Positions 6,485 through 60,944 of a DNA stretch of 64,000 nt are shown one piece after another. Under the pieces are notes generated by a model. That model saw only the letters and a program-made list of their open reading frames with translations, had not been told where the DNA came from and ran no database searches. This DNA comes from a virus. Position numbers and translations under genes: made by a program. The stretch covers positions 1 to 64,000 of the IMG/VR virus record IMGVR_UViG_3300022682_000042; one strand, 5' to 3'. The first letter of the stretch is position 1. The number at the start of each line of letters is the position of its first letter.

Positions 6485-6487
6485 CCC

Positions 6488-6627
6488 CCCCTACCCTACG
6501 CACGTGTAGGGAAATCGCAGGCATATTCGGTTTGTTCCCCTGCTCCACGCCCGTGTGGGGAAACCACTCAAAAACTGACTACCACAAAATACTATACTCC
6601 CCTGCTCCACGCCCGTGTGGGGAAACC
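6488..6627 (-). CRISPR. Mini CRISPR-like array 1 (3 repeats)
   Basis: Three 29-bp units lie at 6488-6516 (degenerate), 6537-6565 and 6599-6627, separated by a 20-bp gap and a 33-bp spacer. The two full units are identical and each forms a short CCAC/GTGG stem-loop. The 29/32-33 geometry and the sequence resemble type I-E repeats. The minus-strand repeat starts GGTTTCCCCACACGGGCG and matches the array at 8238 at roughly 22 of 29 positions when that array is read on the plus strand. The degenerate unit is the one farthest from tnpB. No cas gene is present in the window. The array begins 19 bases after the tnpB stop codon. Confidence 0.7.
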
Positions 6628-6645
6628 CCTTAAATGGCCTAAGTA

Positions 6646-7965
6646 TTAGAGCGTAGATTCACCGTCAACGTTTGACCCTATGGCCTGCGTTACCGACGGT
6701 TCTTTTAAGTCCGACCCAGGTAGTACCGGACTATAATTTAATTGTTTAAGAGCCTCATTCTTGATATTTACTGCTGCGTTACCGTCTCTATGGTGGTTTA
6801 TACCACATTCAGGACAAGTCCATTCACGAATAGCCAGAGTCAAATTAGCATTGATATAGCCACAATTCGAGCAAGTTTTGCTTGATGGAAACCATCTACT
6901 AATAGGAATGATAATGCCACCATTCCACCCTGTTTTATATTCAAGTTGCCGGCGTTTTTCGTAAAGGGCAGCGTCGCTAATTGCCTGAGCCAGTCGATGA
7001 TTTTTCACCATTCCTCTCAGATTCAAATCTTCAATCCCGATAATTTCATAGCTACTGGCTATATCTGTAGTCAACTTATGAGAAGCGTCTTGCCTGATGT
7101 TAGCTATTCTGGCGTGAAGTTTTGTAATTTGTCTCTCTGTTTGCTTTATTTTGTTAGAGACAATCCAGTTTTTTGCACCTTTTTTGACCGTGCCATTCTC
7201 ATTGAAGTTTTCTGGGTTATTAGCCCGGCGCTGTCTATCAAGCTTTCTTTGCAATCGTCTTAATTTAGCCTGAGCTTCTTTCAGTGCCTTTGGATTTTCA
7301 TAAAACACACCATCACTGGTAACAGCCAGGTATTTAATACCAAGATCAACCCCAACGGCATCATCTAATTGTGGCTGATTGTGAATTGTCTCAACCTGTA
7401 CTGATAACCACCAATCTCCATGTCGATAGCTAATTCTTGCTCCTAATATTTTACCATCAAATCTTAGCTCTTCGGTCATATTGACCCAACCAACTCGGCC
7501 TTTATCGAATTGTACGTTATAGTCATCAAACTTTAGGGCCGTATTTGCTAAATAAAAAGCGGGGATTGACTTTTGTTTAGACTTGAAACGGGGCCAACCA
7601 TTGGGTTTACCGTCTTTGCGGGGTTTGTCGGCTTTAGGTAGTAATCCGTTTTTGCGTTTATGAAAGAAATTTCTAAAAGCAGATTGAAGGTCATCAAAAG
7701 CACCTTGACTTGCCCATGTTGTAACGTCATTAATCCAATTTGGTTTGACTTGATTAAATCGTTTCTTGAGCCATCGCCCGTTGACTGGAATAGTATCACC
7801 AATCCCGGCTTGCTTAACTTGCCAATTGTAATCAGAAAAAAAGTTCCACTCGGCAAGTCCCCAGTTAAAGGTATATCTTGCTATCCCCGCGGCTTGCCAA
7901 AAATATTGTTCTTGGTCAGGAGTTGGATTCAGTTTTATCCTGTGGGCCTTCGTTACTGTTTTCAA
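6646..7965 (-). CDS. tnpB: TnpB RNA-guided nuclease (IS200/IS605 family)
   Basis: This 439-residue protein is full length for TnpB. It has an N-terminal helix-turn-helix/OrfB domain (KAHRIKLNPTPDQEQYFWQA) and an OrfB_IS605 core. The RuvC-like catalytic set is D in GVDLGIK (about residue 205), E in GIEDLNLRGM (about 320) and D in HHRDGNAAVNIK. A CSNCGY ... CPECG zinc finger lies between the last two. All three acidic residues and four cysteines are intact, so it should be an active RNA-guided DNase. There is no tnpA nearby, so it is non-autonomous or domesticated. The first 50 bases overlap the upstream RHH gene. Base composition is clearly AT-richer than the phage backbone. The guide-RNA region expected at the 3' end would run into array 1. 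Confidence 0.93.
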   Translation of the reverse strand: MKTVTKAHRIKLNPTPDQEQYFWQAAGIARYTFNWGLAEWNFFSDYNWQVKQAGIGDTIPVNGRWLKKRFNQVKPNWINDVTTWASQGAFDDLQSAFRNFFHKRKNGLLPKADKPRKDGKPNGWPRFKSKQKSIPAFYLANTALKFDDYNVQFDKGRVGWVNMTEELRFDGKILGARISYRHGDWWLSVQVETIHNQPQLDDAVGVDLGIKYLAVTSDGVFYENPKALKEAQAKLRRLQRKLDRQRRANNPENFNENGTVKKGAKNWIVSNKIKQTERQITKLHARIANIRQDASHKLTTDIASSYEIIGIEDLNLRGMVKNHRLAQAISDAALYEKRRQLEYKTGWNGGIIIPISRWFPSSKTCSNCGYINANLTLAIREWTCPECGINHHRDGNAAVNIKNEALKQLNYSPVLPGSDLKEPSVTQAIGSNVDGESTL

Positions 7966-8101
7966 TTTCTATCCTCTGCTTATCTAAATACTGACGAACT
8001 GCCCGACGTACGCTCTCGGCAAGTGGTATGCCATCCCTATCTTTTAGCTTTTTCAAGGCACGATATAGATTATTATCAAGCCTCATTTGACGTTGTTTCA
8101 T
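7916..8101 (-). CDS. Ribbon-helix-helix (CopG-like) regulator
   Basis: From ATG 8101 the protein has 61 residues. It shows a CopG/Arc-type ribbon-helix-helix: strand RQMRLDNNLY, helix RALKKLKDRDG, turn IPLAES and helix VRRAVRQYLDKQ, then an acidic tail. The gene ends inside tnpB (50-bp overlap), so the two are one transcription unit. A perfect 20-bp palindrome lies immediately upstream of the ATG and overlaps the -10, implying autorepression of the RHH-tnpB unit. An upstream in-frame TTG at 8119 is less likely because the -10 lies there and the mRNA would start near the ATG. Confidence 0.8.
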   Translation of the reverse strand: MKQRQMRLDNNLYRALKKLKDRDGIPLAESVRRAVRQYLDKQRIEIENSNEGPQDKTESNS

Positions 8102-8136
8102 ATTTGTATTATAATACAAATGTATACATTAGTCAA
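8102..8136 (-). promoter_or_regulatory. Promoter with palindromic operator, leaderless start
   Basis: On the minus strand TTGACT (8136-8131) and TATAAT (8113-8108) have a 17-bp spacer. The -10 lies at the centre of the perfect 20-bp palindrome ATTTGTATTATAATACAAAT (8102-8121). The ATG at 8101 begins 6 bases after the -10, so the transcript would be essentially leaderless. The palindrome is a natural operator for the dimeric RHH protein encoded next to it. Confidence 0.8.
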
Positions 8137-8237
8137 ACTCGCTGTACTACCTGGGCAGAGAGGATAAACGGGCCATCGCTAACCCTTAGCATAAGCGGGG
8201 TTGATGGTCAACCACGTGCCTTATAAACCGAATATGA

Positions 8238-8575
8238 GTATACCCCACAGGCGTGTGGAACAGGGGAACTTACCAGACTGGCCGGCAATTCCTGGCCAGC
8301 GTATACCCCACAGGCGTGTGGAACAGGGGGGACCGGGCCAGGAAGCACAACTAATCCAGGTGTATACCCCACAGGCGTGTGGAACAGGGGAATGTCCACG
8401 ATGGAAACCACGACGTTAAAGAAGTATACCCCACAGGCGTGTGGAACAGGGGGACTTTGGCCGGCAACCGATAACAGAGCCGGGCGTATACCCCACAGGT
8501 GTGTGGAACAGGGGTAATCACTACATAAAGTAGCCATAAGGAGTTGGTATACCCCACAGGTGTGTGGAACAGGGG
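8238..8575 (+). CRISPR. CRISPR-like array 2 (6 repeats, 5 spacers)
   Basis: Six 29-bp repeats start at 8238, 8301, 8362, 8424, 8486 and 8547. The spacers are 34, 32, 33, 33 and 32 bp and share no sequence. The repeat begins GTATACCCCACAGGCGTG and ends GGAACAGGGG; a CCACA/TGTGG stem is present. The last two repeats carry the same C-to-T change, suggesting that the right side is the trailer end. The 61-63 bp period and stem are typical of type I-E. No cas genes lie in the window, so the array would depend on host Cas proteins or be inert. It points away from tnpB, as array 1 does on the other strand. Confidence 0.88.
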
Positions 8576-8591
8576 GGGGGTGACTACCCCC

Positions 8592-8694
8592 TTGACATAG
8601 TGTAAAAAATAATATATCATAGTAGCAGTATGGGCGGGGACCCCCACGGGTCCCCGTTTTTGTTTTTTAGGGGCCGGACGTTCGGCCTTTTTTT
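8592..8694 (+). promoter_or_regulatory. Late leader with promoter and tandem terminator hairpins
   Basis: TTGACA 8592-8597 and TATCAT 8615-8620 have a 17-bp spacer. Two hairpins with T-runs then follow in series: GGGGACCC/GGGTCCCC (8636-8655, T-run from 8657) and GGCCG/CGGCC (8672-8687, seven Ts). The ribosome binding site TTGGAG and ATG 8708 come directly after. A strong promoter facing two intrinsic terminators before the scaffold-capsid genes needs readthrough or antitermination. Confidence 0.8.
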
Positions 8695-22600: not shown

Positions 22601-22634
22601 TTGATATTATACCCAACCTATGCTATAATGTCAA
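22601..22634. promoter_or_regulatory. Overlapping divergent Pint-like and Pc-like promoters
   Basis: Rightward: TTGATA 22601-22606 and TATAAT 22624-22629. Leftward on the minus strand: TTGACA 22634-22629 and TATAAT 22611-22606. Both spacers are exactly 17 bp and the two promoters overlap almost completely, so they should be mutually exclusive. This matches the intI/Pc intergenic organisation of integrons. The rightward transcript would start at or next to ATG 22637, i.e. leaderless. Confidence 0.85.
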
Positions 22635-45565: not shown

Positions 45566-46525
45566 ATGTTGCCACTTAAGCAGTACCGTATTTTAATTAC
45601 CGGTGGAACCGGCTCCCTCGGTTCTACTCTGGCCCGACAGTGGGCCGGCGATGGTCACCAACTGACCATTATCAGCCGGAATGACCACCGGCAGGCCGAA
45701 CTTATGGCCGACCTTCCCCAGGTAGCTTTCTATTCTCTGGACCTGGGAGACCGGAAACATTTACCTCGGCTTGAACGAATATGCCGGGGACAAGACCTCT
45801 GTATCCACACAGCGGCCCAAAAAGTTGTATCAATGGGCCAGTATCAACCCTCCGCTTATATCTCTACCAACATTCAAGGAACCCAAAATATTTGTGATGC
45901 CTGGGCCGCGGCCCACGGCAATTGTCGGCGGTTGTTAGCCATCTCGACTGATAAAGCACCACAAAGTTTGAATCTATACGGGGCTACCAAAAAGGTTGGA
46001 GAGGCCCTTGTCCGGGACTATGACGGGTCTTGCCTCCGGTATGGCAATGTAGTTACCTCAAAAGGTTCCTTTATTCAGGTCTGGAAAGAGGCAGCCAAAC
46101 AGGGCCACCCCCTGGTTTTACGGTCCGGGGCAACCCTGGATGAAAAATTGACCTGGGAATTTCCGACCCGGTTTTATCTGTCAATGGCCCAGGCCGTGGG
46201 GTTGGTTGAGGAAGCCCTGGGCTTGGTTCTGATAGGCCAGCAAGGGATATTCGTCCCTAACCACGTTTGGGCCTTTGATATGAAAGATGTAGCTGAGGCC
46301 ACCGGCCTTCCCTACGAAATCAGGCCCATCACCGGGTATGAGAAACTTCACGAAATCTTACTGGCCCCCGGTGAAGGGTGGCAAGGGATGGGCCGGTATT
46401 TGGGCCGGGTAGTTGTTCCTCATTGGCCTGATGAGGACCTGGGGTATTATGATACATTCAGGAGTGATAAGGCCCGAAGGCTGTCAGGCCTTCGGGTATT
46501 AGAGTTAGCGGGATGGTGGAAATGA
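45566..46525 (+). CDS. NAD-dependent sugar epimerase/dehydratase, PseB/CapD-like
   Basis: In this 319-residue SDR-extended enzyme, TGGTGSLGS (residues 13-21) binds NAD. ISTDKAPQSLNLYGATKKVG contains the STDKA.P...YGATK block of UDP-GlcNAc 4,6-dehydratases such as PseB and LegB. SCLRYGNVVTSKGSFI is also conserved. It probably makes the 4-keto-6-deoxy sugar that starts the nonulosonate-like pathway encoded downstream. Confidence 0.8.
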   Translation: MLPLKQYRILITGGTGSLGSTLARQWAGDGHQLTIISRNDHRQAELMADLPQVAFYSLDLGDRKHLPRLERICRGQDLCIHTAAQKVVSMGQYQPSAYISTNIQGTQNICDAWAAAHGNCRRLLAISTDKAPQSLNLYGATKKVGEALVRDYDGSCLRYGNVVTSKGSFIQVWKEAAKQGHPLVLRSGATLDEKLTWEFPTRFYLSMAQAVGLVEEALGLVLIGQQGIFVPNHVWAFDMKDVAEATGLPYEIRPITGYEKLHEILLAPGEGWQGMGRYLGRVVVPHWPDEDLGYYDTFRSDKARRLSGLRVLELAGWWK

Positions 46526-46794
46526 CCGAAGAAGAAAAACGAGAAGAGTTTGAGAAAGCATTTTTTATTCGACAGGTAATTGAGGCCGTTATGAATCGTC
46601 ATCAAGCCTGGTGGTACTCAGGTGGGGCCTGCCTGTCAGCCGGGGCCTGTCTGTTTCTGGCCCTACTGTTGATCGGTTGGTTGGCCGGCTGGTGGCCTGG
46701 GGGGTGGCAGTTAGGGGTAACGGTTATTGTTACCGGAATTCTGGCGATTAGCGGGGCGGGACAATATTCAAGGAGCAAGAAAGATGCCAGTTGA
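46522..46794 (+). CDS. Small two-helix membrane protein
   Basis: This 90-residue protein has an acidic N-terminal helix followed by two membrane helices (about 32-60, 63-82). Start ATG overlaps the previous stop (ATGA), end overlaps the NeuB-like start. Its presence inside the sugar operon may reflect a membrane anchor for the pathway or a phage moron. Unknown. Confidence 0.55.
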   Translation: MTEEEKREEFEKAFFIRQVIEAVMNRHQAWWYSGGACLSAGACLFLALLLIGWLAGWWPGGWQLGVTVIVTGILAISGAGQYSRSKKDAS

Positions 46795-47608
46795 ATTTAT
46801 TGCCGAAGTCGGCTCTAATCACAATCATGACCTGGACCGGGCGGAAGCAATTATAGGACAGTCAGCCCAGGCCGGGTTTAATGCCGTTAAGTTCCAGTTC
46901 CAACAGATTGACAAAATGTTCCGGCCCGAAGTTTTTGCAAAGCGACCCGACCTCAGAGACCGGCGACAGTATGATTTTGACCCAGCTTGGTTATTGACGT
47001 TAAGAGAGATTTGCCAGGAATACCGGGTCAAGTTTTATATTACTTGTTACCGGGCTGAACAGATAAAACAAACTGATTATGTGGACGGCCTCAAAATATC
47101 ATCTTATGACCTATTGAATCGGCCCTTACTTGAGGCTATCAGCTATATCAACATCCCGGTACTGATGTCAACCGGAATGGCCTCAATAAATGAAATTGAG
47201 GCAGCTATTGAGGCCCTCGATGGCAATGTATCTACCCTATTACATTGTGTAAGCCAATATCCGGCCCGAATCGAACAGGCCGATTTGTGGCGGATAGCAG
47301 ATTTATCGGCCTTTGGTTTACCGGTGGGTTACTCTGACCACACGGCCAACTTTGGGGTGGTTCAGAGGGCAATTCACAAGTGGGGGGCCTCAGTGGTCGA
47401 GCTTCACGTTGACCTTGATGACCGGCAAGGGGTTGAAACTGCCGGGGGCCACTGTTGGACTATGACATCGGCAGCGATGTTGATAGGCAGTATCAGGGAC
47501 GGGGAACAGGCTGACGGGAGCGAGGGCCTTACCAGGACTGACTTATCAGAACGAGACTGGCGGGCCGATACGGACGGATTAAGGCCACTCAAGGGGGTAC
47601 AGGTATGA
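46784..47608 (+). CDS. NeuB/PseI-like nonulosonate synthase (no SAF domain)
   Basis: In this 274-residue TIM-barrel protein, FIAEVGSNHNHDLDRAEAII (start), GFNAVKFQFQ, VDGLKISSYDLLNRPLL, PVLMSTGMASINEIEAAIEA, LLHCVSQYPA and PVGYSDHTANFGV are the conserved NeuB blocks that bind PEP and metal. The enzyme would condense PEP with a 6-carbon sugar to a 9-carbon acidic sugar. The C-terminal antifreeze-like (SAF) domain of usual NeuB/PseI enzymes (total about 340) is absent. Confidence 0.85.
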   Translation: MPVEFIAEVGSNHNHDLDRAEAIIGQSAQAGFNAVKFQFQQIDKMFRPEVFAKRPDLRDRRQYDFDPAWLLTLREICQEYRVKFYITCYRAEQIKQTDYVDGLKISSYDLLNRPLLEAISYINIPVLMSTGMASINEIEAAIEALDGNVSTLLHCVSQYPARIEQADLWRIADLSAFGLPVGYSDHTANFGVVQRAIHKWGASVVELHVDLDDRQGVETAGGHCWTMTSAAMLIGSIRDGEQADGSEGLTRTDLSERDWRADTDGLRPLKGVQV

Positions 47609-48846
47609 CCTTACCGGCAGCAGCTACATTTAGCAAAGACGGCCTGGCCTGGGGTTTGCCTCACTTAACCCCGGTCAAAAAGGTTGACGGCCCATCGGTT
47701 TTATGTGCTGATGACCGATGGAGAATAGACTGGACAAGTAGCCTGGGCCAGTGGTTATTCGGCCAAACTCAGGCTTTCAGAAATCATCTCCATTGGGCCT
47801 TAGATGAGTATGGGGGCCTATCGGCTACCCTGGCCCACGAACTGGAATACCGGGTAGCTGACCGGCTATCCTCGATGTTGGGGGCCAATGTGCCGGGATG
47901 GGAAGGCCGGGATATCGGGGTCAGGTTCCTCAAGTCTGGTTCCGATGCGACTCTGGCTGCTATCAGACTGGCCAGGGCGGTCACAGGCCGGGACACTATA
48001 GTAACCCTCAAAGGCCACTACCACGGGTGGGGGGATCAATTTATAGCCCGGACCGACCCGGCCCTGGGTATCCCCGATGTGGTCAAATACAAGGTAGTTG
48101 AGGCCGAATGGGGCAATGAGCTATCGGTCAACCATCTTCCCAATTATTTGCCGGCCGCCGTGATATTTGAGCATCCCCCGGAACAACCCCCGGACGGTTG
48201 GCCCGAATGGTTACGGGCCTGGTGTGACCGGAATGGAGCTTTACTTATTGCTGATGAAGTTGTAACCGGCCTCAGATATGGCCTGGGTGGGGCCTGTGGC
48301 CTGTGGGGGTATCAACCGGACTTGGTTTGTATGGGTAAGGCCTTGGGTAATGGGGCGGCAGTATCGGCCCTGGTAGGGCCAATGGAGACCGGTCTGTACG
48401 GAGAGGTTAAGCCATTGATGGGCCGATTTGGTGACAATTGTCCCCCATTTGTCAGTACCACGACCGGGGGGAATATCTTGGATTTGGCTGCGGTCGATTG
48501 GGTATTAACCAACTGGAACCAGGATAAAGTAGATGAGTTATGGCGAAATGGGGTCAGTATTCTTGAGGTAATAAAGTGGGCCGGCCTGGATGTTTACGGC
48601 CACGCTCCCCGGTCTGTTATCCGGTGGGAGTCTGAGATAGAACGGGGCTATTTTATTAAGGCAATGGCCGACCGGGGTCATCTAATTAACCGGCCTCAGT
48701 TCCCTAACCTGGCTCAGACGGTCGAGGACCGGGAAAGTCTGGGTAATGCCTTACAGGAAGTTATGGCCGAAATGGAGGGGATGGACCAGGCCGAGATGTA
48801 CCGGAAGGCCGGGCCATTGCCGAGAGTGTTGTTTAGTAATAGATAG
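47605..48846 (+). CDS. Class III PLP aminotransferase (GSAM-like)
   Basis: This 413-residue protein has SGSDATLAAIRLARAVTGRD, LKGHYHGWGDQF, ALLIADEVVTGLRYG (D binds PLP nitrogen) and CMGKALGNG (the PLP lysine), plus FVSTTTGGN. This is the glutamate-1-semialdehyde aminotransferase type, seen in some nonulosonate and surface-sugar clusters instead of a DegT-type (PseC) enzyme. It probably aminates a sugar ketone. ATGA overlap with the NeuB-like gene. Confidence 0.88.
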   Translation: MTLPAAATFSKDGLAWGLPHLTPVKKVDGPSVLCADDRWRIDWTSSLGQWLFGQTQAFRNHLHWALDEYGGLSATLAHELEYRVADRLSSMLGANVPGWEGRDIGVRFLKSGSDATLAAIRLARAVTGRDTIVTLKGHYHGWGDQFIARTDPALGIPDVVKYKVVEAEWGNELSVNHLPNYLPAAVIFEHPPEQPPDGWPEWLRAWCDRNGALLIADEVVTGLRYGLGGACGLWGYQPDLVCMGKALGNGAAVSALVGPMETGLYGEVKPLMGRFGDNCPPFVSTTTGGNILDLAAVDWVLTNWNQDKVDELWRNGVSILEVIKWAGLDVYGHAPRSVIRWESEIERGYFIKAMADRGHLINRPQFPNLAQTVEDRESLGNALQEVMAEMEGMDQAEMYRKAGPLPRVLFSNR

Positions 48847-48861
48847 AAAGGTTTTGGTTGT

Positions 48862-49011
48862 ATGAATAATAATAATTTTGATAAAGACTTCAATCGTATG
48901 CGAATAGCTATTTTTATTGTCTGGATTATTTCCATGGTGGTTGGCCTGAGTTTATTTGGATTCCTTGTTTGGGTTGTAATTATGTTGTTGCGCTTTTTCG
49001 GTGTGATATGA
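48862..49011 (+). CDS. Small membrane protein
   Basis: The 49-residue frame from 48862 (MNNNNFDKDFNRMRIAIFIV, then WIISMVVGLSLFGFLVWVVI) carries one or two membrane helices and ends by ATGA overlap with the oxidoreductase gene. AT-rich. Unknown. Confidence 0.5.
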   Translation: MNNNNFDKDFNRMRIAIFIVWIISMVVGLSLFGFLVWVVIMLLRFFGVI

Positions 49012-49844
49012 ATATTCTCATTGTCGGCTACGGCCGGGCCGGTAAACGCCACGCCAAGATTGTAGAAAAACTAGGACATTTTTGGTTAGCTGTTGACCCG
49101 TCTATACAGGCTACAAAGGTTTTTAATACTCTTGATAGCGCCTTAGCCTATAAGTTAATTGATGAAAAATATGGCTCGTTTGATCTGGCCGTGATATGCA
49201 CCCCCCCCGGCCTTCACATTTCCCAGGCCCAAACCTGTCTTGACGCCGGCCTCCACGTTTTGATAGAAAAACCCTTGTGTGGGCGGGGCCAACTGGATAA
49301 GGCCGAAAAGTTGCTATATCACCCCCGGCAAGACCGGGTGATGATGGCCCTAAATTACAGGTGGCATCCGGCCATCAAAGGATTGAGACAAACCAGGGGG
49401 ATAGACTGGAATGAAGATTGGGCCGGACAATGGCAGGCCCATAGCGAACAACACCGGCAGACTATACCGGAATGGGGAATATTGCTTGACCACGCAGCCC
49501 ATACCATTGACATTATCCGGCATCTGTCCGGGTATGAACTACAACCCTCTTTTACCAGTCAGGACAATGACCGGCGGTTCGGAATATCTGGCCGGTTGTC
49601 TCACCCATCGGCCACATTCCTGATGTCAGATTGGGCCGACAGACCGGGGCAGAAGGTGGCCTACATCAAGGGGCCGTTTGGCCGAGTCGATATCCCGACC
49701 TTACCCTGGGAACTTGACCAGATGTTCGGGGGGATGTGGGGGGATGTGTTGGCCTGGGTCCGGGGAGAGATAGATAACCCTTGTCCGTTGGCTGATGGGT
49801 ATTTGGCTCAGGTGGTGCTGGAAAGGGCAAGGAAATTATTATGA
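49008..49844 (+). CDS. Gfo/Idh/MocA-type sugar oxidoreductase
   Basis: This 278-residue protein has ILIVGYGRAGKRHAKIVEKL (Rossmann NAD(P) site), LAVICTPPGLHISQAQTCLD and HVLIEKPLCG (the EKP motif), with DHAAHTIDIIRHLSGY in the catalytic half. It oxidises or reduces a sugar intermediate. The usual family length is about 330, so it is a compact version. It is part of the glycan operon by overlaps at both ends. Confidence 0.85.
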   Translation: MNILIVGYGRAGKRHAKIVEKLGHFWLAVDPSIQATKVFNTLDSALAYKLIDEKYGSFDLAVICTPPGLHISQAQTCLDAGLHVLIEKPLCGRGQLDKAEKLLYHPRQDRVMMALNYRWHPAIKGLRQTRGIDWNEDWAGQWQAHSEQHRQTIPEWGILLDHAAHTIDIIRHLSGYELQPSFTSQDNDRRFGISGRLSHPSATFLMSDWADRPGQKVAYIKGPFGRVDIPTLPWELDQMFGGMWGDVLAWVRGEIDNPCPLADGYLAQVVLERARKLL

Positions 49845-50671
49845 CCCACTACGGCCCTCCCATAGCCAAAAAAGGCAAGTTAATAGTCATCAACTGTCGA
49901 GAGTGCAAATATGCCCATCTTTACCCTTTACCGGACCCAATAGCCACAGCCCGGCATTATGCCGAGTATGACGCCGAATATTCTACCCCGGATGGGGCGG
50001 CCTGGCTAGACAAAGAAAAGGCCGAACACGAGGACGGTCTGTGGAACTCGGCCTACAGGTGGCAGGCGTCTCTACTCAATGAGGGGGCCTTGCTTGACGT
50101 GGGGGCCGGGGCCGGTTGGTTTGTTAGATGGTGGGATAAGAATGTTTGTCCGGCGGCCTACGGGGTAGAGCCTTCCAAAATTTGCCGGGATATTGGCCCT
50201 TCAATGCTGTCAACATTCGAGCAGGCTCAAAATGTTTTGGCCGATGTTCCTCTGGCTAATATACGCCTATCCCTGGTCCTGGAACACATTTTAGACCCGG
50301 AAACATTGCTCAGGCAGTATGTAGAGTTATTGAGGCCCGGAGGCCGGGTTATGGTCATAGTCCCCAATGAGTTCAACCCGTTACAAATGAGGGCAGCCCG
50401 GAAACGGGGAGACTGGTTTGTTAGCCGGAAACATATCAACTATTTTACCGGCCCCACTCTGGCTAAACTGTTCAACCGAGTTGGCCTGAGAGTCCGTTAT
50501 CTTGGGGCGACCTGTCCGACAGAGTTTTGGCCTGTCCGGAGGGGGTCTCAGTTTCATCGGGGGCGGTTACGGTTTGAGAAGTTGGTGGGGCCGGTGGCTT
50601 TCAGGTGGTATACAAGACTATACCACTCAAGGGGATGGGGCCGGGAAATTGTGATAGTCGGGGAAAAATGA
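49841..50671 (+). CDS. SAM-dependent methyltransferase
   Basis: This 276-residue class I methyltransferase has ALLDVGAGAGWFVRWWDKNV (motif I), LSLVLEHILDPETLLRQYVE and LRPGGRVMVIVPNEF (motif post III), with CRECKY near the N-terminus. It belongs to the Methyltransf_23-like group acting on sugars. A C-terminal helical domain could bind the acceptor. Confidence 0.8.
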   Translation: MTHYGPPIAKKGKLIVINCRECKYAHLYPLPDPIATARHYAEYDAEYSTPDGAAWLDKEKAEHEDGLWNSAYRWQASLLNEGALLDVGAGAGWFVRWWDKNVCPAAYGVEPSKICRDIGPSMLSTFEQAQNVLADVPLANIRLSLVLEHILDPETLLRQYVELLRPGGRVMVIVPNEFNPLQMRAARKRGDWFVSRKHINYFTGPTLAKLFNRVGLRVRYLGATCPTEFWPVRRGSQFHRGRLRFEKLVGPVAFRWYTRLYHSRGWGREIVIVGEK

Positions 50672-51318
50672 TATCTACTTTTAAACAATATATTCAACGT
50701 GAATTTAATCTTGTGGCAAAGAATTCCCCTGAATTTATTCCTGTGTATATTGATTATCTTGAAAAGATGAAAGCGGGATTTTTCAAAAATCTTTCTGTTT
50801 TCGGGCAACATTTCCGGGGTTTTGACTTGGTAGATGCAATGATTTTTTCTAGATTACATACAAGAATGTGTAATGGGGAAATTCTCTCGGCTGAAATAGA
50901 AGTAGGCCATGAACCTGTTGCAGATAGATATGAAAAGGAAAATAACGAATTTTTGAAATCATTACCATATCCATTTTCGGCAAAGTTTTTGAATGGCCCT
51001 GGTGGTTATTGTGATGGATGGTTTTATTGGGAAAAACCTGTATTTGTAGGTGTGAAAAAGCCCGATGATGACAAGATAATAGAAGAACAGTTGATGCCTA
51101 GATATTGTCAATTGGAGGTTGGTTACACACAATTAAGCCGAACTTTTTTCCATCTTTTCGAGGAGGGTTGTTTAGCCAGATGGCCGTACCATAGCAATAT
51201 TATTACTTTACTTTATCACAATACACAAACAGAAAAAAAAGAAAAATTGAGATATATGCCAGATGATAAATTTATGCAGTTAAGTTTTCGTCAACCTTTA
51301 TTTTTCAATCTAGAATAA
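50668..51318 (+). CDS. Hypothetical protein, low-GC insert
   Basis: This 217-residue protein (ISTFKQYIQREFNLVAKNSP; VGHEPVADRYEKENNEFLKS; LGYTQ-like repeats absent) is of unknown family. The gene is clearly AT-richer than both neighbours and uses different codons, so it is probably a recent arrival. It is nevertheless coupled by ATGA overlap to the methyltransferase gene. Confidence 0.6.
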   Translation: MISTFKQYIQREFNLVAKNSPEFIPVYIDYLEKMKAGFFKNLSVFGQHFRGFDLVDAMIFSRLHTRMCNGEILSAEIEVGHEPVADRYEKENNEFLKSLPYPFSAKFLNGPGGYCDGWFYWEKPVFVGVKKPDDDKIIEEQLMPRYCQLEVGYTQLSRTFFHLFEEGCLARWPYHSNIITLLYHNTQTEKKEKLRYMPDDKFMQLSFRQPLFFNLE

Positions 51319-51319
51319 T

Positions 51320-51742
51320 ATGAGATACTGGAAACTGACCGACCCCGCCTACACCTGGCCTACCCGCCTATCCCTGGCTTTAGGCCAATGGGAAAGCCCG
51401 ATGGAGGCCCTGTTCTGGCAGGAGGCCCGGAAGTGGGAGATATTCCCTGTCAGGCGGCGATTGCCCGGTTTAAGGCGGCAAGTTCTTTGTGGTGAGTACC
51501 GGCTTGACTTTGCTATAGTCCGGTGGCGATTTGGTAAACCGGCCATAAAGTTAGCTATCGAAATCGATGGCTGGCTCTATCATTCTACTCCTGAACAAAA
51601 GGCCAGAGACCGGCAACGACAGACTTATTGTGAGGCCAGAGGATGGCAGTTTATCAGATTTACCGGGTCAGAGGTTTATAGAGACACAACGGGGTGTATT
51701 AATGAAGTCCAGAATCAACTTCGTATTTTTGGCCTACGGTAA
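51320..51742 (+). CDS. DUF559/Vsr-like nuclease-fold protein
   Basis: In this 140-residue protein, ESPMEALFWQEARKWEIFPV ... LPGLRRQVLCGEYRLDFAIV ... AIEIDGWLYHSTPEQKARDR ... RGWQFIRFTGSEVYRD matches DUF559 (E, D, E-x-D, PD-(D/E)xK fold). Such proteins are single-domain endonucleases or damage-repair-like enzymes. It lies inside the sugar operon and overlaps the PseG-like gene by 41 bases. Confidence 0.85.
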   Translation: MRYWKLTDPAYTWPTRLSLALGQWESPMEALFWQEARKWEIFPVRRRLPGLRRQVLCGEYRLDFAIVRWRFGKPAIKLAIEIDGWLYHSTPEQKARDRQRQTYCEARGWQFIRFTGSEVYRDTTGCINEVQNQLRIFGLR

Positions 51743-52583
51743 TGAACAGGTTGGCCTGGGCCATTACTACCGGACCATGGCCCTGGCTCAAGAGGCCAGT
51801 TGCCGGGGCCACCGGGTAACGTTTCTATCAGACAGGCCAACCCATCAACCTGGGGTCAGGTGGGAACAGGTAGTCTATAATGATCCGGCCTCATTCCTGG
51901 GGTGGATAAGACCATTACGGCCCGATTGGGTAATCGTTGATTTGCCGGAAAAGGCCCCGGATTGGGTCAGAGGCAATTGTAAATTGATGCTGCTTGACCC
52001 GGTCAATCCCTGGGAACAGGATTGTGATTTAGCTATCTCTCAGGGGTTCCGGGGCCACTATACAGCCCCGGAATATCTCATTTTGGCCCCGGAACTAAGG
52101 GCCATTCACCGGCCAACAGAACGGGACCGGTGTTGGTTTGTCTGGGGTGGGGCCTCTGATAATTTGGGCCTGTTGGAGCTATTTGCCCGGAATGTCCCTC
52201 AAACAGCCTTGCTTGCTTCGGCCAATGGGGTAACGCCAGAAGTCCAGTCCTGGAACCCTAAGCACTGGCAGGGGCGGGCCACAAACCGGTCAGAGTTTTT
52301 CCGGTGGATGGCTGAATGTGACCGGGCTGTTATCCAGATGGGTCATACAGCCTGGGAATGTCTCTATTTTGGTTTGCCTTTATGGTTGATTGCCCATTCT
52401 GATCGGGGCTATAAAACGGCCCTACAGATGGAAAAGCGAGGGTGGGCCAAAGTCTGGCCTCAAGTTGGCTCACCTCCGGGCCGGTCAATTAGACGATGGC
52501 TGGCTGAGAAATGGAGGCCGGAACCCTGCCCGATAGACGGTAAGGGGACTGAACGAATTATCAAGCTAATGGAGGCCGGGTGA
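51702..52583 (+). CDS. PseG-like nucleotide-sugar hydrolase / GT-B protein
   Basis: The start at 51702 gives 293 residues and begins MKSRINFVFLAYGNEQVGLG, HYYRTMALAQEA: the GxGHxxRxxxLA motif of PseG/SpsG. It has an N-terminal Rossmann half and a C-terminal half with VIQMGHTAWECLYFGLPLWL, the typical GT-B nucleotide site. PseG removes UDP from the 2,4-diamino sugar before condensation by PseI. That role fits the cluster, but an SpsG-like or transferase role is possible. Confidence 0.78.
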   Translation: MKSRINFVFLAYGNEQVGLGHYYRTMALAQEASCRGHRVTFLSDRPTHQPGVRWEQVVYNDPASFLGWIRPLRPDWVIVDLPEKAPDWVRGNCKLMLLDPVNPWEQDCDLAISQGFRGHYTAPEYLILAPELRAIHRPTERDRCWFVWGGASDNLGLLELFARNVPQTALLASANGVTPEVQSWNPKHWQGRATNRSEFFRWMAECDRAVIQMGHTAWECLYFGLPLWLIAHSDRGYKTALQMEKRGWAKVWPQVGSPPGRSIRRWLAEKWRPEPCPIDGKGTERIIKLMEAG

Positions 52584-52858
52584 GACGGGATAACCGAGCT
52601 ATCATATCGGCCAGTCGGACCGGGGTGGCCGGGGATGAACTACCGGAAAAACGGGCCAGAATATACCTTTACAAACGGGGTGAACCGATACCGGGGCGGG
52701 ACCCCTGGCAGCATTATTGTGAGGAATGTCCATTTGATGACTGTATTAGAACAGAGGGAGATATGTCACCATTAGGAATGTGGGGGCGAGAATACCCTGG
52801 CTGTCCGATTTATGATGAGGCATTGAGGCAAAAAGGGGAAGAGGAGAGGGCGGCCTGA
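52580..52858 (+). CDS. Small Cys-rich protein
   Basis: This 92-residue protein starts at a GTG overlapping the preceding stop. HYCEECPFDDCIRTEGDM and GCPIYD supply five cysteines that could bind a metal. AT content as backbone. It ends at TGATG, after which only a 15-codon frame and a gap to 52971 follow. Unknown. Confidence 0.55.
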   Translation: MRRDNRAIISASRTGVAGDELPEKRARIYLYKRGEPIPGRDPWQHYCEECPFDDCIRTEGDMSPLGMWGREYPGCPIYDEALRQKGEEERAA

Positions 52859-52971
52859 TGCAATTGACAATAACTTGGCCTTTAGTTTTAGTGGTCTTCA
52901 TTTGATAAGAATACCATATACATGCAAAGATATCGCAATGACTTTAGTTAGTGAAATAAATAGGATATTGG

Positions 52972-53799
52972 GTGAAAAATACGAGAATTGCTTTTGTAGT
53001 TAGTTCTGGAAGATCAGGGACAGCCCTCCTCGGCCAAAAGTTGCTACCGGCCCTCAATACCGATGGCCTGCAAGTTGAGGCCACTCACGAGTATCATTGT
53101 ACTCAAGTTCAGGAGTGGGCCGTCCGGTATCACTCCGGGGTAATGAGTCGGCAAGAGGTTCAACCCTTGTTATGGCGGCTATATGAGTCGGCCCGGTATC
53201 ATTCTGAGGCTCCCTTATTCGTTGACGTGTCAAATAAGTTATCCTGGCACATTACGGCCCTAACTGAACTATGGCCTGATGCTAAGTTCGTCCATATTAT
53301 CCGGGGCGGGCCACAAACCTGTCTCAGTTTCTATCACAAGCTCAAGGCCGAGTGCTATACTGACCGGGGGGTCAAGGCCCTACATCACTGGCTGGCCCGG
53401 TCAAGTGGGGTTATCCCCCCTCAAGAAAAAGAGTGGTGGTGGCCGATGCCTCACCTTGACAGCCCGTTTCTTGGTGACTTCATTTGGTCCTGGGGCCGGT
53501 GGCAACGAATTTGTTGGTATTGGGCCGAAGTCAACCGGGTTATCGGTAAAAGCCTGGAAAACTATGTGAGGCCCAAAAACAGGATGACAGTCAGGCTTGA
53601 GGATTTGGTGGGGGATAGTGGAGCCACCTGGCTTGAGTTGGTAACCTTCCTGGGCCTCAATTGGGTTGATGTTGATAGCCTGTTAGCCCGGCCTCATAAT
53701 GTGGGGTGGTTGGCCGAATATGAGATGACCGATAGCCAAGAGGGACAGTTCTGGAAGTTGTGTGGGAAAGTACAGGAGAAGTATTATAGCGGGGTTTAG
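52972..53799 (+). CDS. Sulfotransferase-like protein
   Basis: This 275-residue protein starts at GTG. FVVSSGRSGTALLGQKLLPA is the PAPS 5'-phosphosulfate loop (SGRSGT), VDVSNKLSWHITALTELWPD and AKFVHIIRGGPQTCLSFYHK match the 3'-phosphate-binding region, and RMTVRLEDLVGDSGATWLEL is a conserved late block. It would transfer sulfate to a glycan or protein; the acceptor is not known. It lies in the glycan cluster, and a second sulfotransferase-like gene lies at 60128. Confidence 0.8.
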   Translation: MKNTRIAFVVSSGRSGTALLGQKLLPALNTDGLQVEATHEYHCTQVQEWAVRYHSGVMSRQEVQPLLWRLYESARYHSEAPLFVDVSNKLSWHITALTELWPDAKFVHIIRGGPQTCLSFYHKLKAECYTDRGVKALHHWLARSSGVIPPQEKEWWWPMPHLDSPFLGDFIWSWGRWQRICWYWAEVNRVIGKSLENYVRPKNRMTVRLEDLVGDSGATWLELVTFLGLNWVDVDSLLARPHNVGWLAEYEMTDSQEGQFWKLCGKVQEKYYSGV

Positions 53800-53859
53800 C
53801 CGGCCTCGGCCATTCTATCAATCGTAATTAGTAGCGAAATGAAAGGAGGGAAGCCCCCA

Positions 53860-54027
53860 ATGGCCAGGAAATTTGGGGAAAAACCTAGTGGATATGTCAA
53901 TGTGTCTGAGGCCGAGGCCGGCAGCCAAAAATTCGATTGGTGGCCCTGGGTGGCCGGGGCAATTATTATTCTATCCTGGTTATTGGCCGGCTATATGGCT
54001 GTCCAGTTGGTTAGGGGGGCGATATGA
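53860..54027 (+). CDS. Small single-pass membrane protein
   Basis: The start at 53860 follows AAAGGAGGG. The 55-residue protein has an N-terminal soluble part (ARKFGEKPSGYVNVSEAEAG) and one membrane helix (WVAGAIIILSWLLAGYMAV). ATGA overlap with the next gene. Unknown. Confidence 0.55.
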   Translation: MARKFGEKPSGYVNVSEAEAGSQKFDWWPWVAGAIIILSWLLAGYMAVQLVRGAI

Positions 54028-54512
54028 AAAAACATTTTAGATATTTCTGGTATGTTCTGAGACATAAGTGGTTTGTTCTTCAGGAGGGATTAAAACTTGG
54101 TTTGCCGTTATGGGTGCTTATTATTCATGATTGGCAAAAGTTTACACCGACAGAATGGCGACCATACGTATTATCATTTTATGGTCCGTGGTCTTATAAA
54201 GAACGTCCAAAATGGCTAGTTGATAATTTCAACCAAGCTTGGTTACACCATATCCATTATGGTCCACATCATTGGCAGTATTGGCTATTGGTGTATGATG
54301 ATGACAAAGAGGATGTTGAACGAATTGAAATGTCAGACAGGTATCGTCGGGAAATGCTGGCAGATTGGCGTGGCGCGGGCCGTGCAATTACGGGTAAAGA
54401 TAATACGAGGGATTGGTATATACAACGGCATGACCGTTTCAAAAAAATGTTACATCCGAATACTAGACAATGGATTGAATTAAAATTAGGTATTATGGGT
54501 GATATTGAATGA
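54024..54512 (+). CDS. DUF5662-like phage protein
   Basis: This 162-residue protein is histidine- and tryptophan-rich (VLRHKWFVLQEGLKLGLPLW; IIHDWQKFTPTEWRPYVLSF; HHIHYGPHHWQYW; EMSDRYRREMLADW), the pattern of phage DUF5662 proteins, with a possible HD-like metal site (H, HDW, HH). Low GC compared with its neighbours. Function unknown. Confidence 0.65.
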   Translation: MKKHFRYFWYVLRHKWFVLQEGLKLGLPLWVLIIHDWQKFTPTEWRPYVLSFYGPWSYKERPKWLVDNFNQAWLHHIHYGPHHWQYWLLVYDDDKEDVERIEMSDRYRREMLADWRGAGRAITGKDNTRDWYIQRHDRFKKMLHPNTRQWIELKLGIMGDIE

Positions 54513-55606
54513 GGTGTCTACTATGTAACGCTGACAAACCGGAACTGTCTCCGGCCTACAGGCCCGAAGGAACCCTACGAGATGTAACAGTCTGGCTTTG
54601 TAAACGGTGCGGGTTCCTGTTTAGCCAGGGCCAACCCCACGGTGATAGTCAACCCCGACCTACCCCCGATGCCTCATTCGGCAATTTGAGGCAGGGTAAG
54701 GCGGACCGGGTAGAACCCCATTTGGAATTTTTGTTAGATTATCACCCGGCCTTTACCCCGGCCAATATTCTTGATGTCGGGGCCAACCGGGGCCATTTTG
54801 TAAGGGCGGCCCTGGACCAATGGCCTGGATGTACGATAGTCGGAATAGAGCCAGACGACAGTTTGGGCCGGGTGGTCGATGACCGGGTGGCCTGGTTGAC
54901 AGGTAGACTTGAGGACTTTGAAGGGCCTAAACAAGCCTATGACCTTATTTATCTATCTCATACCCTGGAACATTTAGCCAATCCAAGGCAAGCCCTAAAA
55001 CGATTGGCCGATTGGACTTATCCAACCCTTGGCCTTCTGCTGGTTGAAGTTCCTAATATGGCCTTTATCCAACGGGAGGATGTTCTGGAAGAGTGGTTTA
55101 TTGATAAGCATGTTTCCCATTTCTCAGACCGGACTTTGAAAGCAATACTTGAGTTTGCCGGTTGGCGGGTAATGACCCTAGAAAAGTCAGACCATTATTT
55201 AACCGCTGTAGCTTCCCGTAGTATTCCCCTGGCTATTAGGACCTACAACGAACCGGCCATAGCCCTGGGTCGGCTCAAGTGGTATCAGGAGACCAGGGAG
55301 CGAAACCAGATGGCCTTAGTTGGTTACGTAGAAGCCTGGAACAAGGTAGCCCAGAACAACCGGGTAGCTGTCTGGGGAGAAGGCCGGATATTTCAGGCAA
55401 TGAGAAGAACTGGCCTTGATATGGGCCGGGTAGTGGTCGTTGACCGGAATGGCCCTAGCAGGCCGGCAGACTTGTTACCGGCTTACGGGCCTGATTATAT
55501 CTTGGTCTGTAGCCGGGAATATTTTGAGGAAATTGAGACTGAGGCCGAACAGTTGGGGTTGATGGCTGATGTGAGACGGTGGGACAGGCCACCGGGGAGA
55601 GAATAA
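54509..55606 (+). CDS. Sugar C-methyltransferase (three-domain)
   Basis: This 365-residue protein has an N-terminal zinc-binding domain (RCLLCNADKPEL ... LCKRCGFLFSQ), a SAM-binding core (ANILDVGANRGHFVRAALDQ; YDLIYLSHTLEHLANPRQAL; LLLVEVPNMAF) and a C-terminal Rossmann-like part (NRVAVWGEGRIFQAMRRTGL; VVVVDRNGP). This is the domain order of NDP-hexose C-methyltransferases. It would add a methyl branch to a keto-sugar. ATGA overlap upstream. Confidence 0.82.
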   Translation: MRCLLCNADKPELSPAYRPEGTLRDVTVWLCKRCGFLFSQGQPHGDSQPRPTPDASFGNLRQGKADRVEPHLEFLLDYHPAFTPANILDVGANRGHFVRAALDQWPGCTIVGIEPDDSLGRVVDDRVAWLTGRLEDFEGPKQAYDLIYLSHTLEHLANPRQALKRLADWTYPTLGLLLVEVPNMAFIQREDVLEEWFIDKHVSHFSDRTLKAILEFAGWRVMTLEKSDHYLTAVASRSIPLAIRTYNEPAIALGRLKWYQETRERNQMALVGYVEAWNKVAQNNRVAVWGEGRIFQAMRRTGLDMGRVVVVDRNGPSRPADLLPAYGPDYILVCSREYFEEIETEAEQLGLMADVRRWDRPPGRE

Positions 55607-55607
55607 T

Positions 55608-56471
55608 TTGAGAACCAACGATGATTTGAAACGGCTGGCCCGTGAGGTTCGGAAACGGGCTATCCGGTATATTCACGCAAGTTCCGGTGCTCATCCGGGT
55701 GGGTCGCTATCAGTGGCCGATATCTTGACGGCCCTATATTTCAAGGTGGCCGAACCTCAACCCGTATATCAACCCGACCACCCAAACCGGGATATTATAA
55801 TTCTCAGTAAAGGCCATTCATTTCCTGCATTAATGGCAACCTGGGAACTACTTATCGAGGAAAGCCATAACTACCTTGACTCAGACTTTATCAGCTTACC
55901 CCCCTGGTGGGACGGGGGACCTATCACTCTCAGGCAAATCAACTCACCATTCCAGGGTCATCCATCCTTAACCCATACCCCCTGGTGTGAGACCAGTACC
56001 GGCTCGCTCGGCCAAGGCTTTGCTGTAGCCGTGGGAATGGCCTACGGCCTCAAGCAGAAGGGCCAGGATAGGCGAGTTTACGTTGTCTTGGGGGATGGGG
56101 AATTACAAGAGGGGATAGTAGCCGAGGTAGCCAGGGCTGCGGCCTGGTTGGGCCTTGATAACCTGACTGCTATTGTTGATTTTAACGGGTTGGCCTCAGA
56201 CAGGTATAGTCGGACGATAGATGACCCCGTTAAGGAGTTTAGGGCCTGGGGGTGGCATAGTTTTGATTGTAACGGTCATCGTTTTGGGGCTTTATATGAT
56301 AGCTTGGTAAATGGCCCAAAGCGAGGAAATGGCAAACCCACTTGTATCATAGCTCATACAATTAAAGGTAAGGGAGTTCCAGCTTTCGAGAATGATCCAG
56401 ACGGTTGTCACGGGGCGGTCACCTTGTCTGATGAGGATTTACAGATGACATTGGAGGCTTTAGATGGTTAA
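55608..56471 (+). CDS. Transketolase N-terminal (TPP-binding) subunit
   Basis: This 287-residue protein starts at TTG. IHASSGAHPGGSLSVADILT, LSKGHSFPALMATWELL, STGSLGQGFAVAVGMAYGLK and VLGDGELQEGIVAEVARAAA with DFNGLASD give the full TPP/Mg motif (GDG-x27-N). It pairs with the C-terminal subunit at 57114. Split transketolase-like pairs in sugar clusters can transfer two-carbon units to make branched or ketose sugars rather than serve the pentose pathway. Confidence 0.9.
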   Translation: MRTNDDLKRLAREVRKRAIRYIHASSGAHPGGSLSVADILTALYFKVAEPQPVYQPDHPNRDIIILSKGHSFPALMATWELLIEESHNYLDSDFISLPPWWDGGPITLRQINSPFQGHPSLTHTPWCETSTGSLGQGFAVAVGMAYGLKQKGQDRRVYVVLGDGELQEGIVAEVARAAAWLGLDNLTAIVDFNGLASDRYSRTIDDPVKEFRAWGWHSFDCNGHRFGALYDSLVNGPKRGNGKPTCIIAHTIKGKGVPAFENDPDGCHGAVTLSDEDLQMTLEALDG

Positions 56472-56658
56472 GACAGTATTTGTTAGTGTAAAATTTGAAG
56501 TTAACTGGTTTGATATTGATTTTGGGAATAATTGGCCTGACAATGAGTCTCTTAAAAATTCCTCGGTTGATACTGTAATAGCAAATTATTTAACTAAAGA
56601 TGGTACAAATCAGGCCCCAGAGATATTAGTTAAGTTAATGGAGGAACTGGATGACTGA
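56464..56658 (+). CDS. Small hypothetical protein, low GC
   Basis: This 64-residue protein (KTVFVSVKFEVNWFDIDFGN; VDTVIANYLTKDGTNQAPEI) lies between the two transketolase subunit genes. AT-rich, overlapping on both sides (8 bases each). No family is recognised. Confidence 0.5.
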   Translation: MVKTVFVSVKFEVNWFDIDFGNNWPDNESLKNSSVDTVIANYLTKDGTNQAPEILVKLMEELDD

Positions 56659-56890
56659 ACTAATAATGGTCCCGGTCAACTCGACTAACCTGTTGGCCGT
56701 GGGATATGAGTCAGAGACCTTAACCCTTTACGTCCAGTTTAAGAATGGTCGGACTTACAAATACCACCGGGTTCCCGAACAGGTTTATCTTGACATATTG
56801 GCCTTCAATCAGTCACCAAACCTGAGTATAGGCCAGTATTTTGAGAAGGCTGTCAAGGGGGGTCAGTACAAATATACGGAGGTGACATAG
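56651..56890 (+). CDS. KTSC-domain protein
   Basis: In this 79-residue protein, PVNSTNLLAVGYESETLTLY, VQFKNGRTYKYHRVPEQVY and a final YFEKAVKGGQYKYT form the KTSC domain, a small beta/alpha module common in phages and mobile elements. The role is unknown. It overlaps the previous gene by 8 bases. Confidence 0.85.
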   Translation: MTELIMVPVNSTNLLAVGYESETLTLYVQFKNGRTYKYHRVPEQVYLDILAFNQSPNLSIGQYFEKAVKGGQYKYTEVT

Positions 56891-57112
56891 ATGGCAATGG
56901 CTACAATGGCTAACCGGAGAAAAGATAGTAAGCCCAGAGTTTTATGGGTAGGAAAAGATGGGGAACAGGCTATACCAATAGCTACTCCATCTGGCAAATT
57001 CATTGAAATAAATTGGAGGATATTAAGACGGTGGCTTATTATAACTCTGGTTGTCATTGGTATTTTTTCTTGTGGGTTTGTATCCGGGGCTACCTGGATG
57101 TGGGGAGGATAA
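56891..57112 (+). CDS. Small membrane protein
   Basis: This 73-residue protein has a basic start (MANRRKDSKPRVLWVGKDGE) and one membrane helix near the C-terminus (WLIITLVVIGIFSCGFVSGA). It lies between the KTSC and transketolase C-terminal genes. Unknown. Confidence 0.55.
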   Translation: MAMATMANRRKDSKPRVLWVGKDGEQAIPIATPSGKFIEINWRILRRWLIITLVVIGIFSCGFVSGATWMWGG

Positions 57113-57113
57113 G

Positions 57114-58058
57114 ATGGCCCAAAGTATTGTGAGTAATGATAGTCTCCGGGTGGCCTTTGGCAATGCCCTACTTGACCTGGCCCTCCTATCTGACTTTCAA
57201 ATTTTTGACGCCGACATAGCTGGAGGTTGCGGCCTTTCTCAGTTTCGGGAAACCTACCCGGACCGACTGACAAATGTGGGGATAGCTGAGGCCGGAATGG
57301 TCGGGATAGCAGCCGGTTACAGTCGGGCTACCGGTAGGAAGGCCATTGCAAGCACGTTTGCAATGTTTGGCTGGAGGGCCGCCGAAATTTTCTCCCTATC
57401 TGTGGCCTATAACCGATTTGATGTGACCTTGGCCCTTTCACACGCCGGACTCGGAACGGGCCCGGATGGGGCCAGTTGTCAGCCTATGAATGTTATTTCA
57501 ACTTGGGCCTCTATCCCTAATACGGTGGTATTATGGCCCTCTACCCCGACCTTGATGCGACAGGCCGTAACCTGGCTATTGGGAGAGTATGAGGGGCCGG
57601 CAGTCCTGATAACGGGCCGGTCCCCGGTCACCTTTGATTTGCCGGAGGCCCATCGGTTCCATTTTGGCAAGGTTCAACCGGCCTGGGGGACCGACATCCC
57701 GGAGGTAGTTATTTGCGGGGTTGGGCCTGGGGTGGGGGTGGCTGTTGAGGCAGCCCAAATATTATCAAGTCGGGATATCCCAACTGTGGCCCTGGACTGC
57801 CATACTTTGGCCCCATTCGATGAGGCCGGGGTTAGAGGCTTTTGTAGTCCGGCCAAAGTGGTGGTTACGGTTGAGGATGGGGGACCGAGTGGCCTGTATA
57901 GTTTGGTTTGTCGAGCATTGGCTCAGGCCGAACGAAGGCCCCCGGTGGCCCCGGTTTGTGTCTGGGGGTGGGGAGAAAGCGGGGAGGCCCCGGAACTCTA
58001 CGAGAAACACGGTATAACGGCTGAGGGGGTAATTAAGGCTGTGGAGAGGTGGTTATGA
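57114..58058 (+). CDS. Transketolase C-terminal subunit
   Basis: The start at 57114 follows GGGAGG. This 314-residue protein has a pyrimidine-binding domain (SLRVAFGNALLDLALLSDFQ; VGIAEAGMVGIAAGYSRATG, with the catalytic-type E in GIAEAGM) and a C-terminal transketolase domain (PEVVICGVGPGVGVAVEAAQ; VVVTVEDGGPSGLYSLVCRA). Together with the gene at 55608 it would form one two-subunit TPP enzyme; three small genes are inserted between the two. Confidence 0.9.
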   Translation: MAQSIVSNDSLRVAFGNALLDLALLSDFQIFDADIAGGCGLSQFRETYPDRLTNVGIAEAGMVGIAAGYSRATGRKAIASTFAMFGWRAAEIFSLSVAYNRFDVTLALSHAGLGTGPDGASCQPMNVISTWASIPNTVVLWPSTPTLMRQAVTWLLGEYEGPAVLITGRSPVTFDLPEAHRFHFGKVQPAWGTDIPEVVICGVGPGVGVAVEAAQILSSRDIPTVALDCHTLAPFDEAGVRGFCSPAKVVVTVEDGGPSGLYSLVCRALAQAERRPPVAPVCVWGWGESGEAPELYEKHGITAEGVIKAVERWL

Positions 58059-60943: not shown

Positions 60944-60944
60944 T

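Follow-up and report, generated by a model that had tools for sequence, protein, structure and literature searches.

Two CRISPR-like arrays flanking a phage tnpB gene

The DNA analysed here (the window) comprises 64,000 nucleotides, bases 1-64000 of the 82,541-bp IMG/VR record IMGVR_UViG_3300022682_000042, which belongs to an uncultivated tailed phage. Between the gene for the head protease, whose stop codon is at 6484, and the head gene that follows at 8630, it carries a tnpB gene and a gene for a ribbon-helix-helix (RHH) protein, flanked by two short arrays that resemble clustered regularly interspaced short palindromic repeats (CRISPR; Table 1). The right array (8238-8575, plus strand) consists of six 29-nt repeats that are invariant in 28 of their 29 columns, with conservation dropping to background directly outside the 29 nt; successive copies are 61-63 bp apart and enclose spacers of 34, 32, 33, 33 and 32 nt. 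On the left (6487-6627, minus strand) there are three repeats, separated by one spacer of 33 nt and an atypical one of 20 nt. The core repeat pattern occurs eight times in the window, compared to none in 100 shuffled sequences, and the remainder of the 82,541-bp record contains no further copy. Both arrays thus show the near-identical repeats, regular spacing and unrelated spacers by which CRISPR arrays are recognised. This confirms a preliminary description of the stretch, which had reported two CRISPR mini-arrays around a tnpB-RHH unit, each running outward with its degraded repeats far from tnpB: at the distal ends we find the degenerate repeat L3 on the left and the C-to-T variants R5 and R6 on the right. 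The same description had assigned all nine repeats to one family, and left and right repeats are indeed related, but they are distinct, differing at about one third of their positions.

All nine repeats can form a 4-bp stem in the same register (columns 8-11 with 18-21), followed by an 8-nt tail, and one compensatory change was found among the nine stems. Type I-E systems are characterised by 29-nt repeats with a stem, an 8-nt 5' handle and spacers of about 32 nt, and the arrays agree with this geometry in repeat length, spacer length, stem and tail. The type I-E appearance noted earlier therefore stands as far as shape is concerned, but membership of the type is not supported, as genes for Cascade/Cas3 and Cas1-Cas2 were not found in the record, which is possibly incomplete. 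Neither Cas1 (PF01867) nor the Cas6e type (PF08798) had a match in these 82,541 bp, and a PADLOC scan of 100 open reading frames (ORFs) of the record revealed no cas gene among the 25 families listed, in agreement with the cas-less state described before. Also unlike type I-E arrays, the repeat was matched in no genome searched: a tandem pair is absent from the genomes of 84,980 species representatives, nothing above chance was found in 17 genomes of TnpB relatives, matches in 400 Chloroflexota, in phages and in plasmids stayed at chance level, and CRISPR and RNA families of Rfam gave no credible match. The phage genes did not point to a host either, the relatives of capsid, terminase and tape-measure proteins being too distant for an assignment.

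The spacers had no match in the phage's own genome, in phages, plasmids or the fetched loci, or in four exact seed scans of IMG/VR. A similarity among spacers R1, R2 and R4 (a common 10-mer) was discarded as weak, since it was reached by 87 of 2000 random sets. Interpretations as IS200-type or attC/REP-like repeats were likewise abandoned: CRISPR accounts better for both the spacing and the spacers, and the insert contains no gene for a Y1 or tyrosine recombinase.

Table 1. Features of the tnpB-array locus in the window, and arrays of the Lalka phages used for comparison.
Feature	Position	Strand	Remarks
Inserted block	6485..8591	no strand	both arrays, tnpB, RHH gene and promoter; L137 and L138 have 6-17 bp here
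Left repeat L3	6487..6516	-	degenerate, outermost; hairpin kept by compensatory C-G to U-A change
Left "spacer"	6517..6536	-	atypical, 20 nt, contains AAACCGAATATG
Left repeat L2	6537..6565	-	GGTTTCCCCACACGGGCGTGGAGCAGGGG
Left spacer	6566..6598	-	33 nt
Left repeat L1	6599..6627	-	begins 18 nt past tnpB stop codon
Left omegaRNA-like scaffold	6628..6733	-	tnpB 3' end + 18 nt; hairpin A (loop GTACTACCTGGG), hairpin B
tnpB	6646..7965	-	439 aa; RuvC D/E/D and zinc finger present in alignment to ISDra2 TnpB
RHH (CopG/Arc-like) regulator ORF	7916..8119	-	probable ATG at 8101; overlaps tnpB start
Symmetric bidirectional promoter	8087..8136	both	TTGACG-17-TATAAT (+), TTGACT-17-TATAAT (-); consensus match
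Right omegaRNA-like scaffold	8137..8237	+	stand-alone; homologous to 6628-6733
Right repeat R1	8238..8266	+	GTATACCCCACAGGCGTGTGGAACAGGGG
Right spacer 1	8267..8300	+	34 nt
Right repeat R2	8301..8329	+	
Right spacer 2	8330..8361	+	32 nt
Right repeat R3	8362..8390	+	
Right spacer 3	8391..8423	+	33 nt
Right repeat R4	8424..8452	+	
Right spacer 4	8453..8485	+	33 nt
Right repeat R5	8486..8514	+	C-to-T variant
Right spacer 5	8515..8546	+	32 nt
Right repeat R6	8547..8575	+	C-to-T variant, outermost
Intrinsic terminator-like hairpin	8632..8659	+	possible end of right-array transcript
Lalka arrays	L175:4282-4742, L176:4066-4435, L177:3526-3615		

Homologous omegaRNA-like scaffolds precede both arrays

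The omegaRNA that guides TnpB lies at the 3' end of the tnpB gene, as established for IS200/IS605 and IS607 elements. In the phage locus a structured RNA is predicted at this very place, and the approximately 100 nt preceding the right array (8137-8237, plus strand) are a diverged copy of it (6733-6628, minus strand), with a local alignment score of 47, whereas among 1000 shuffles and 1960 random windows of the phage genome the best score was 41. The separate folds of the two sequences agree, each having, at equal offsets, a hairpin A and then a hairpin B that carries a 3-nt bulge; the loop of hairpin A (GTACTACCTGGG) is identical in both, while its stem is made of different letters, and it lies 87 and 82 nt ahead of the first repeat, respectively. 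In the RNAalifold consensus, six of the 18 pairs are changed on both sides (i.e., compensatory) and none is broken, whereas only 3 of 1000 column-shuffled alignments folded as well and slid-partner controls were far worse. Because a structured RNA at the tnpB 3' end lies where an omegaRNA is expected, we refer to both copies as omegaRNA-like. The preliminary description had correctly seen tnpB and the RHH gene in the central segment, but had missed this stand-alone copy of the tnpB 3' end in front of the right array; its suggestion that TnpB RNA and repeats interact gains indirect support from the presence of such a scaffold ahead of both arrays.

The 12-mer AAACCGAATATG, which forms the end of the right scaffold, directly precedes both R1 and the degenerate L3 (chance about 3.5e-5). 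Its occurrence within the 20-nt left "spacer" may represent what is left of a former junction between scaffold and repeat on this side.

TnpB, the RHH protein and their promoter

TnpB proteins are RNA-guided DNA nucleases that cleave next to a TAM. The phage TnpB aligns over its full length with ISDra2 TnpB (PDB 8H1J, E 6e-55) and retains the RuvC aspartate, glutamate and aspartate as well as the zinc-finger cysteines, so that its nuclease sequence is, judged by this alignment, intact. It scores above the cut-off of the general NCBI model for TnpB and below those of the IS200, IS607, C2c8 and Cas12f2 models. With a TnpB-family nuclease adjoining an array, the locus has the arrangement that characterises type V-U. 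The best TnpB relatives are only 36-40% identical, and a search of their flanks for arrays produced one other case, which is unrelated. This virus contig (L046:4455-6492) encodes a TnpB-like nuclease of 430 aa with nine repeats of about 33 nt approximately 210 bp downstream, mostly spaced at 65-67 bp; its repeat is a different one, and it represents a further candidate for type V-U. A CRISPR-like signal in a further contig (L019) turned out to be a 62-bp exact tandem repeat at the contig end and is probably an assembly artefact.

Upstream of tnpB, two promoters that each match 11 of 12 consensus bases are arranged back to back, with their -10 region common to a perfect 20-bp palindrome (8102-8121). 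As RHH proteins bind short palindromes, this palindrome is a possible operator for the RHH protein encoded next to it, and self-control of both arms of the locus is plausible. Another pair of overlapping divergent consensus promoters is found at 22601-22634 of the same phage. The G+C content of tnpB (0.41) is lower than that of the arrays (0.57) and the genome (0.50).

Insertion into a conserved head-gene junction

The phage encodes head and tail proteins, including a Mu-type portal, the XkdF-type head protease, an SPP1-type Dit protein and a capsid protein related to major capsid proteins of phages. In the nearest phages according to the capsid protein (L137 and L138, with 64% and 62%, respectively), the junction is composed in the order protease, TTGACATA promoter, terminator and scaffold-like head gene; neither tnpB nor an array is present there, and the gap between protease stop codon and promoter is just 6-17 bp. 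Since both phages carry the same junction without tnpB or arrays, the segment 6485-8591, which lies between the stop codon of the head-maturation protease and the TTGACA promoter serving the head genes downstream and has repeats in inverted orientation at its two ends, is on this comparison an addition in the phage studied here, gained in one step or several.

The adjacent region 8592-8690 contains a promoter followed by a terminator within about 60 nt, at the same gene junction as in L137 and L138, and this pair could possibly specify a small RNA conserved in the head operons of these phages. Further downstream (45566-61958) the phage carries a cluster for sugar-nucleotide and related biosynthesis with genes for an epimerase, a class-III aminotransferase, a sulfotransferase, a methyltransferase, one half of a transketolase and a cytidylyltransferase.

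A proposed TnpB-CRISPR cassette and its alternatives

We propose that the insert is a cas-less phage TnpB-CRISPR cassette in which TnpB is the most likely nuclease to use the guides of its arrays, and that the locus represents a new, two-armed variant of such phage loci; we assign this reading a probability of roughly 0.4. The single symmetric promoter, on which the RHH protein of the cassette probably acts as a repressor, would give rise to two transcripts, a leftward one containing the RHH gene, tnpB, the omegaRNA-like scaffold at the tnpB 3' end and the left array, and a rightward one that contains the stand-alone scaffold with the right array and would end at the terminator-like hairpin 8632-8659. 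The arrays would act as small guide memories, with identical hairpin repeats, unique spacers of 32-34 nt and older variants in distal position. With the scaffold holding it, TnpB would be the likeliest nuclease for guides from both transcripts, and could direct them against rival mobile DNA or serve as a gene regulator.

Several observations weigh against this proposal. A full repeat intervenes between each scaffold and the first spacer, so that the repeat itself would serve as the guide if the arrangement usual for TnpB applied. A tracrRNA-type (trans-activating CRISPR RNA) anti-repeat, as in type V systems with tracrRNA, was not found, complementarity between scaffold and repeat being no better than in shuffles. 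The intervening repeat and the missing anti-repeat, which together would call for some processing step, are the main difficulty. The repeats are moreover shaped like those of type I-E rather than type V, with the 8-nt tail parting the hairpin from the spacer. A covariance model of the scaffold pair detected no further copy in 94 other sources, including most of the fetched tnpB loci, and for this reason the omegaRNA-like designation is taken from position and structure; the model was built from two sequences and its reach is accordingly short. The homologous region ahead of each array also resembles CRISPR leaders, and a common leader would account for the homology of the scaffolds, but not for their compensatory pairs. 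Finally, a second, distantly related tnpB of the phage (record 67430-68749, minus strand; L056:4430-5749; 25% identity over 214 aa) has no arrays around it, and neither of the tnpB genes of L137 (1782-3150 and 11580-12734) is accompanied by arrays, although the first of them has an overlapping upstream RHH-like gene and a consensus promoter. Arrays are thus dispensable for TnpB and RHH proteins, and they are the special part of the locus.

The geometry of the repeats and spacers, being that of type I-E CRISPR RNAs (29-nt repeats, 32-34-nt spacers, stem at positions 8-12/17-21 and 8-nt tail), would also suit virus-borne arrays that borrow a type I-E-like Cas machinery of the host and whose spacers exclude rival phages, with TnpB contributing only a promoter and a mobile neighbourhood. 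The distal position of the older repeats, as in leader-polarised arrays, agrees with this idea, and cas-less mini-arrays are already known from viruses (PMC6858448; PMC11656645). However, the repeats of the known mini-arrays equal those of the host, while the species representatives searched included no genome with the repeats described here and the Chloroflexota, phages and plasmids gave chance matches only, although the host may be unsampled; nor did any spacer match a sequence in the sources searched. Use of host Cas proteins and competition with other phages, both put forward in the preliminary description, are hence not supported by the data, and we consider this alternative somewhat less likely than the cassette proposed above. 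It is less probable still that a TnpB element simply landed between two host-derived arrays with which it is uncoupled. The low G+C content of tnpB relative to arrays and genome, the start of L1 only 18 nt past the end of tnpB, a distance that could result from insertion next to a repeat, and the tnpB genes without arrays (including the RHH-tnpB pair of L137) would be in line with such an accident, but it leaves unexplained that the right array owns a copy of the tnpB 3'-end structure at a matching distance and that the same layout is found in the Thermus phages Lalka8, Lalka27a and Lalka27b (see below), whose TnpB shows no detectable relationship to the one described here.

The RHH class comprises known binders of repeat arrays, and an RHH protein is encoded precisely between the two arrays here. 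One might therefore regard the repeats as DNA hairpins outside the CRISPR world, i.e., binding sites, element ends or an array for segregation or replication with copies about six helical turns apart, especially since they lie in inverted orientation at the insert ends and the right copies follow each other at 61-63 bp. Yet copy number, spacing, unrelated spacers and distal variants suit guide memories better, the spacers of the Lalka arrays have all been exchanged between strains, and the insert is devoid of a transposase or partition gene, which makes this the least probable of the explanations considered. As the effector of the arrays, TnpB is slightly favoured over host Cas proteins because both arrays sit behind an omegaRNA-like scaffold, because the pairing with an array recurs with another TnpB in the Lalka phages, and because the searches revealed no host carrying these repeats.

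TnpB is regarded as the ancestor of Cas12, which raises the question of the route that led from a single-guide omegaRNA to a multi-guide array. The locus contains two copies of an omegaRNA-like scaffold/array joint, one of them free of a protein gene, and thus offers a testable intermediate, possibly a stage found in nature on the way from transposon nucleases to CRISPR systems. It is tempting to speculate, though no more than tentatively, that two guide genes of scaffold and array, one internal to tnpB and one stand-alone, under an RHH-controlled bidirectional promoter constitute an RNA-guided system of independent origin, intermediate between transposon TnpB and type V CRISPR and with I-E-shaped repeats. 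TnpB is inferred to have captured arrays or adaptation modules on about 50 separate occasions (PMC12669027).

Comparison with known systems

Like the virus-borne mini-arrays described so far, the arrays are cas-less, reside in a virus and have a leader-like upstream sequence; the former, however, have 1-2 spacers that match related viruses, possess repeats identical to those of the host (PMC11656645), and are not coupled to TnpB. Loci that combine TnpB with CRISPR arrays are rare, with examples in a few phages. A phage CRISPR array beside a TnpB-family nuclease is known from cyanophage vB_AphaS-CL131 (PMC6293099), which differs in having one array and an effector assigned by its authors to type V-U2, and landfill phages provide a further case of TnpB near arrays (PMC12607003).

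The closest published case, absent from the preliminary description, is that of the Lalka phages, whose short arrays adjoin tnpB and have 29-bp repeats unlike those of Thermus and 32-33-bp spacers; their authors considered a possible new type V system and reported no cas1/cas2 (PMC11437467). In these loci (PQ109075-77), tnpB encodes 565 aa, and an array begins 22 nt behind it on the same strand, beside a capsid gene. The strains have 8, 7 and 2 repeats with a variant repeat type at the far end, and all spacers differ between strains while tnpB is nearly identical, which indicates that arrays of this kind turn over. One spacer is duplicated in Lalka8, and Lalka27b has a "spacer" of 6 nt. In the phage collection, matches to the Lalka spacers were confined to the Lalka phages. 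When the repeats of both systems are aligned, the hairpins fall in the same register and three of five pairs are changed on both sides, with a score reached by 3 of 500 shuffles, although no more than about half of the positions have the same letter; the two TnpB proteins have no significant BLASTP similarity (E 0.085). Layout, spacing and hairpin are common to both loci, but these comparisons do not prove that the repeats share an ancestor.

The two systems thus share a phage location in the neighbourhood of head genes, an array that follows tnpB on its own strand after about 20 nt, 32-33-nt spacers, 29-nt repeats with the hairpin at the same positions and an 8-nt tail, and repeat variants far from tnpB. 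Together they suggest that I-E-shaped 29-nt repeats beside phage tnpB genes recur with different TnpBs, a recurrence that simple hitch-hiking on host Cas proteins would leave unexplained. The Lalka loci differ by their TnpB lineage, a single array and the lack of an RHH gene, and no stand-alone scaffold was seen in them. What is new in the locus presented here is the symmetric bidirectional promoter between the arrays together with the paired homologous scaffolds.
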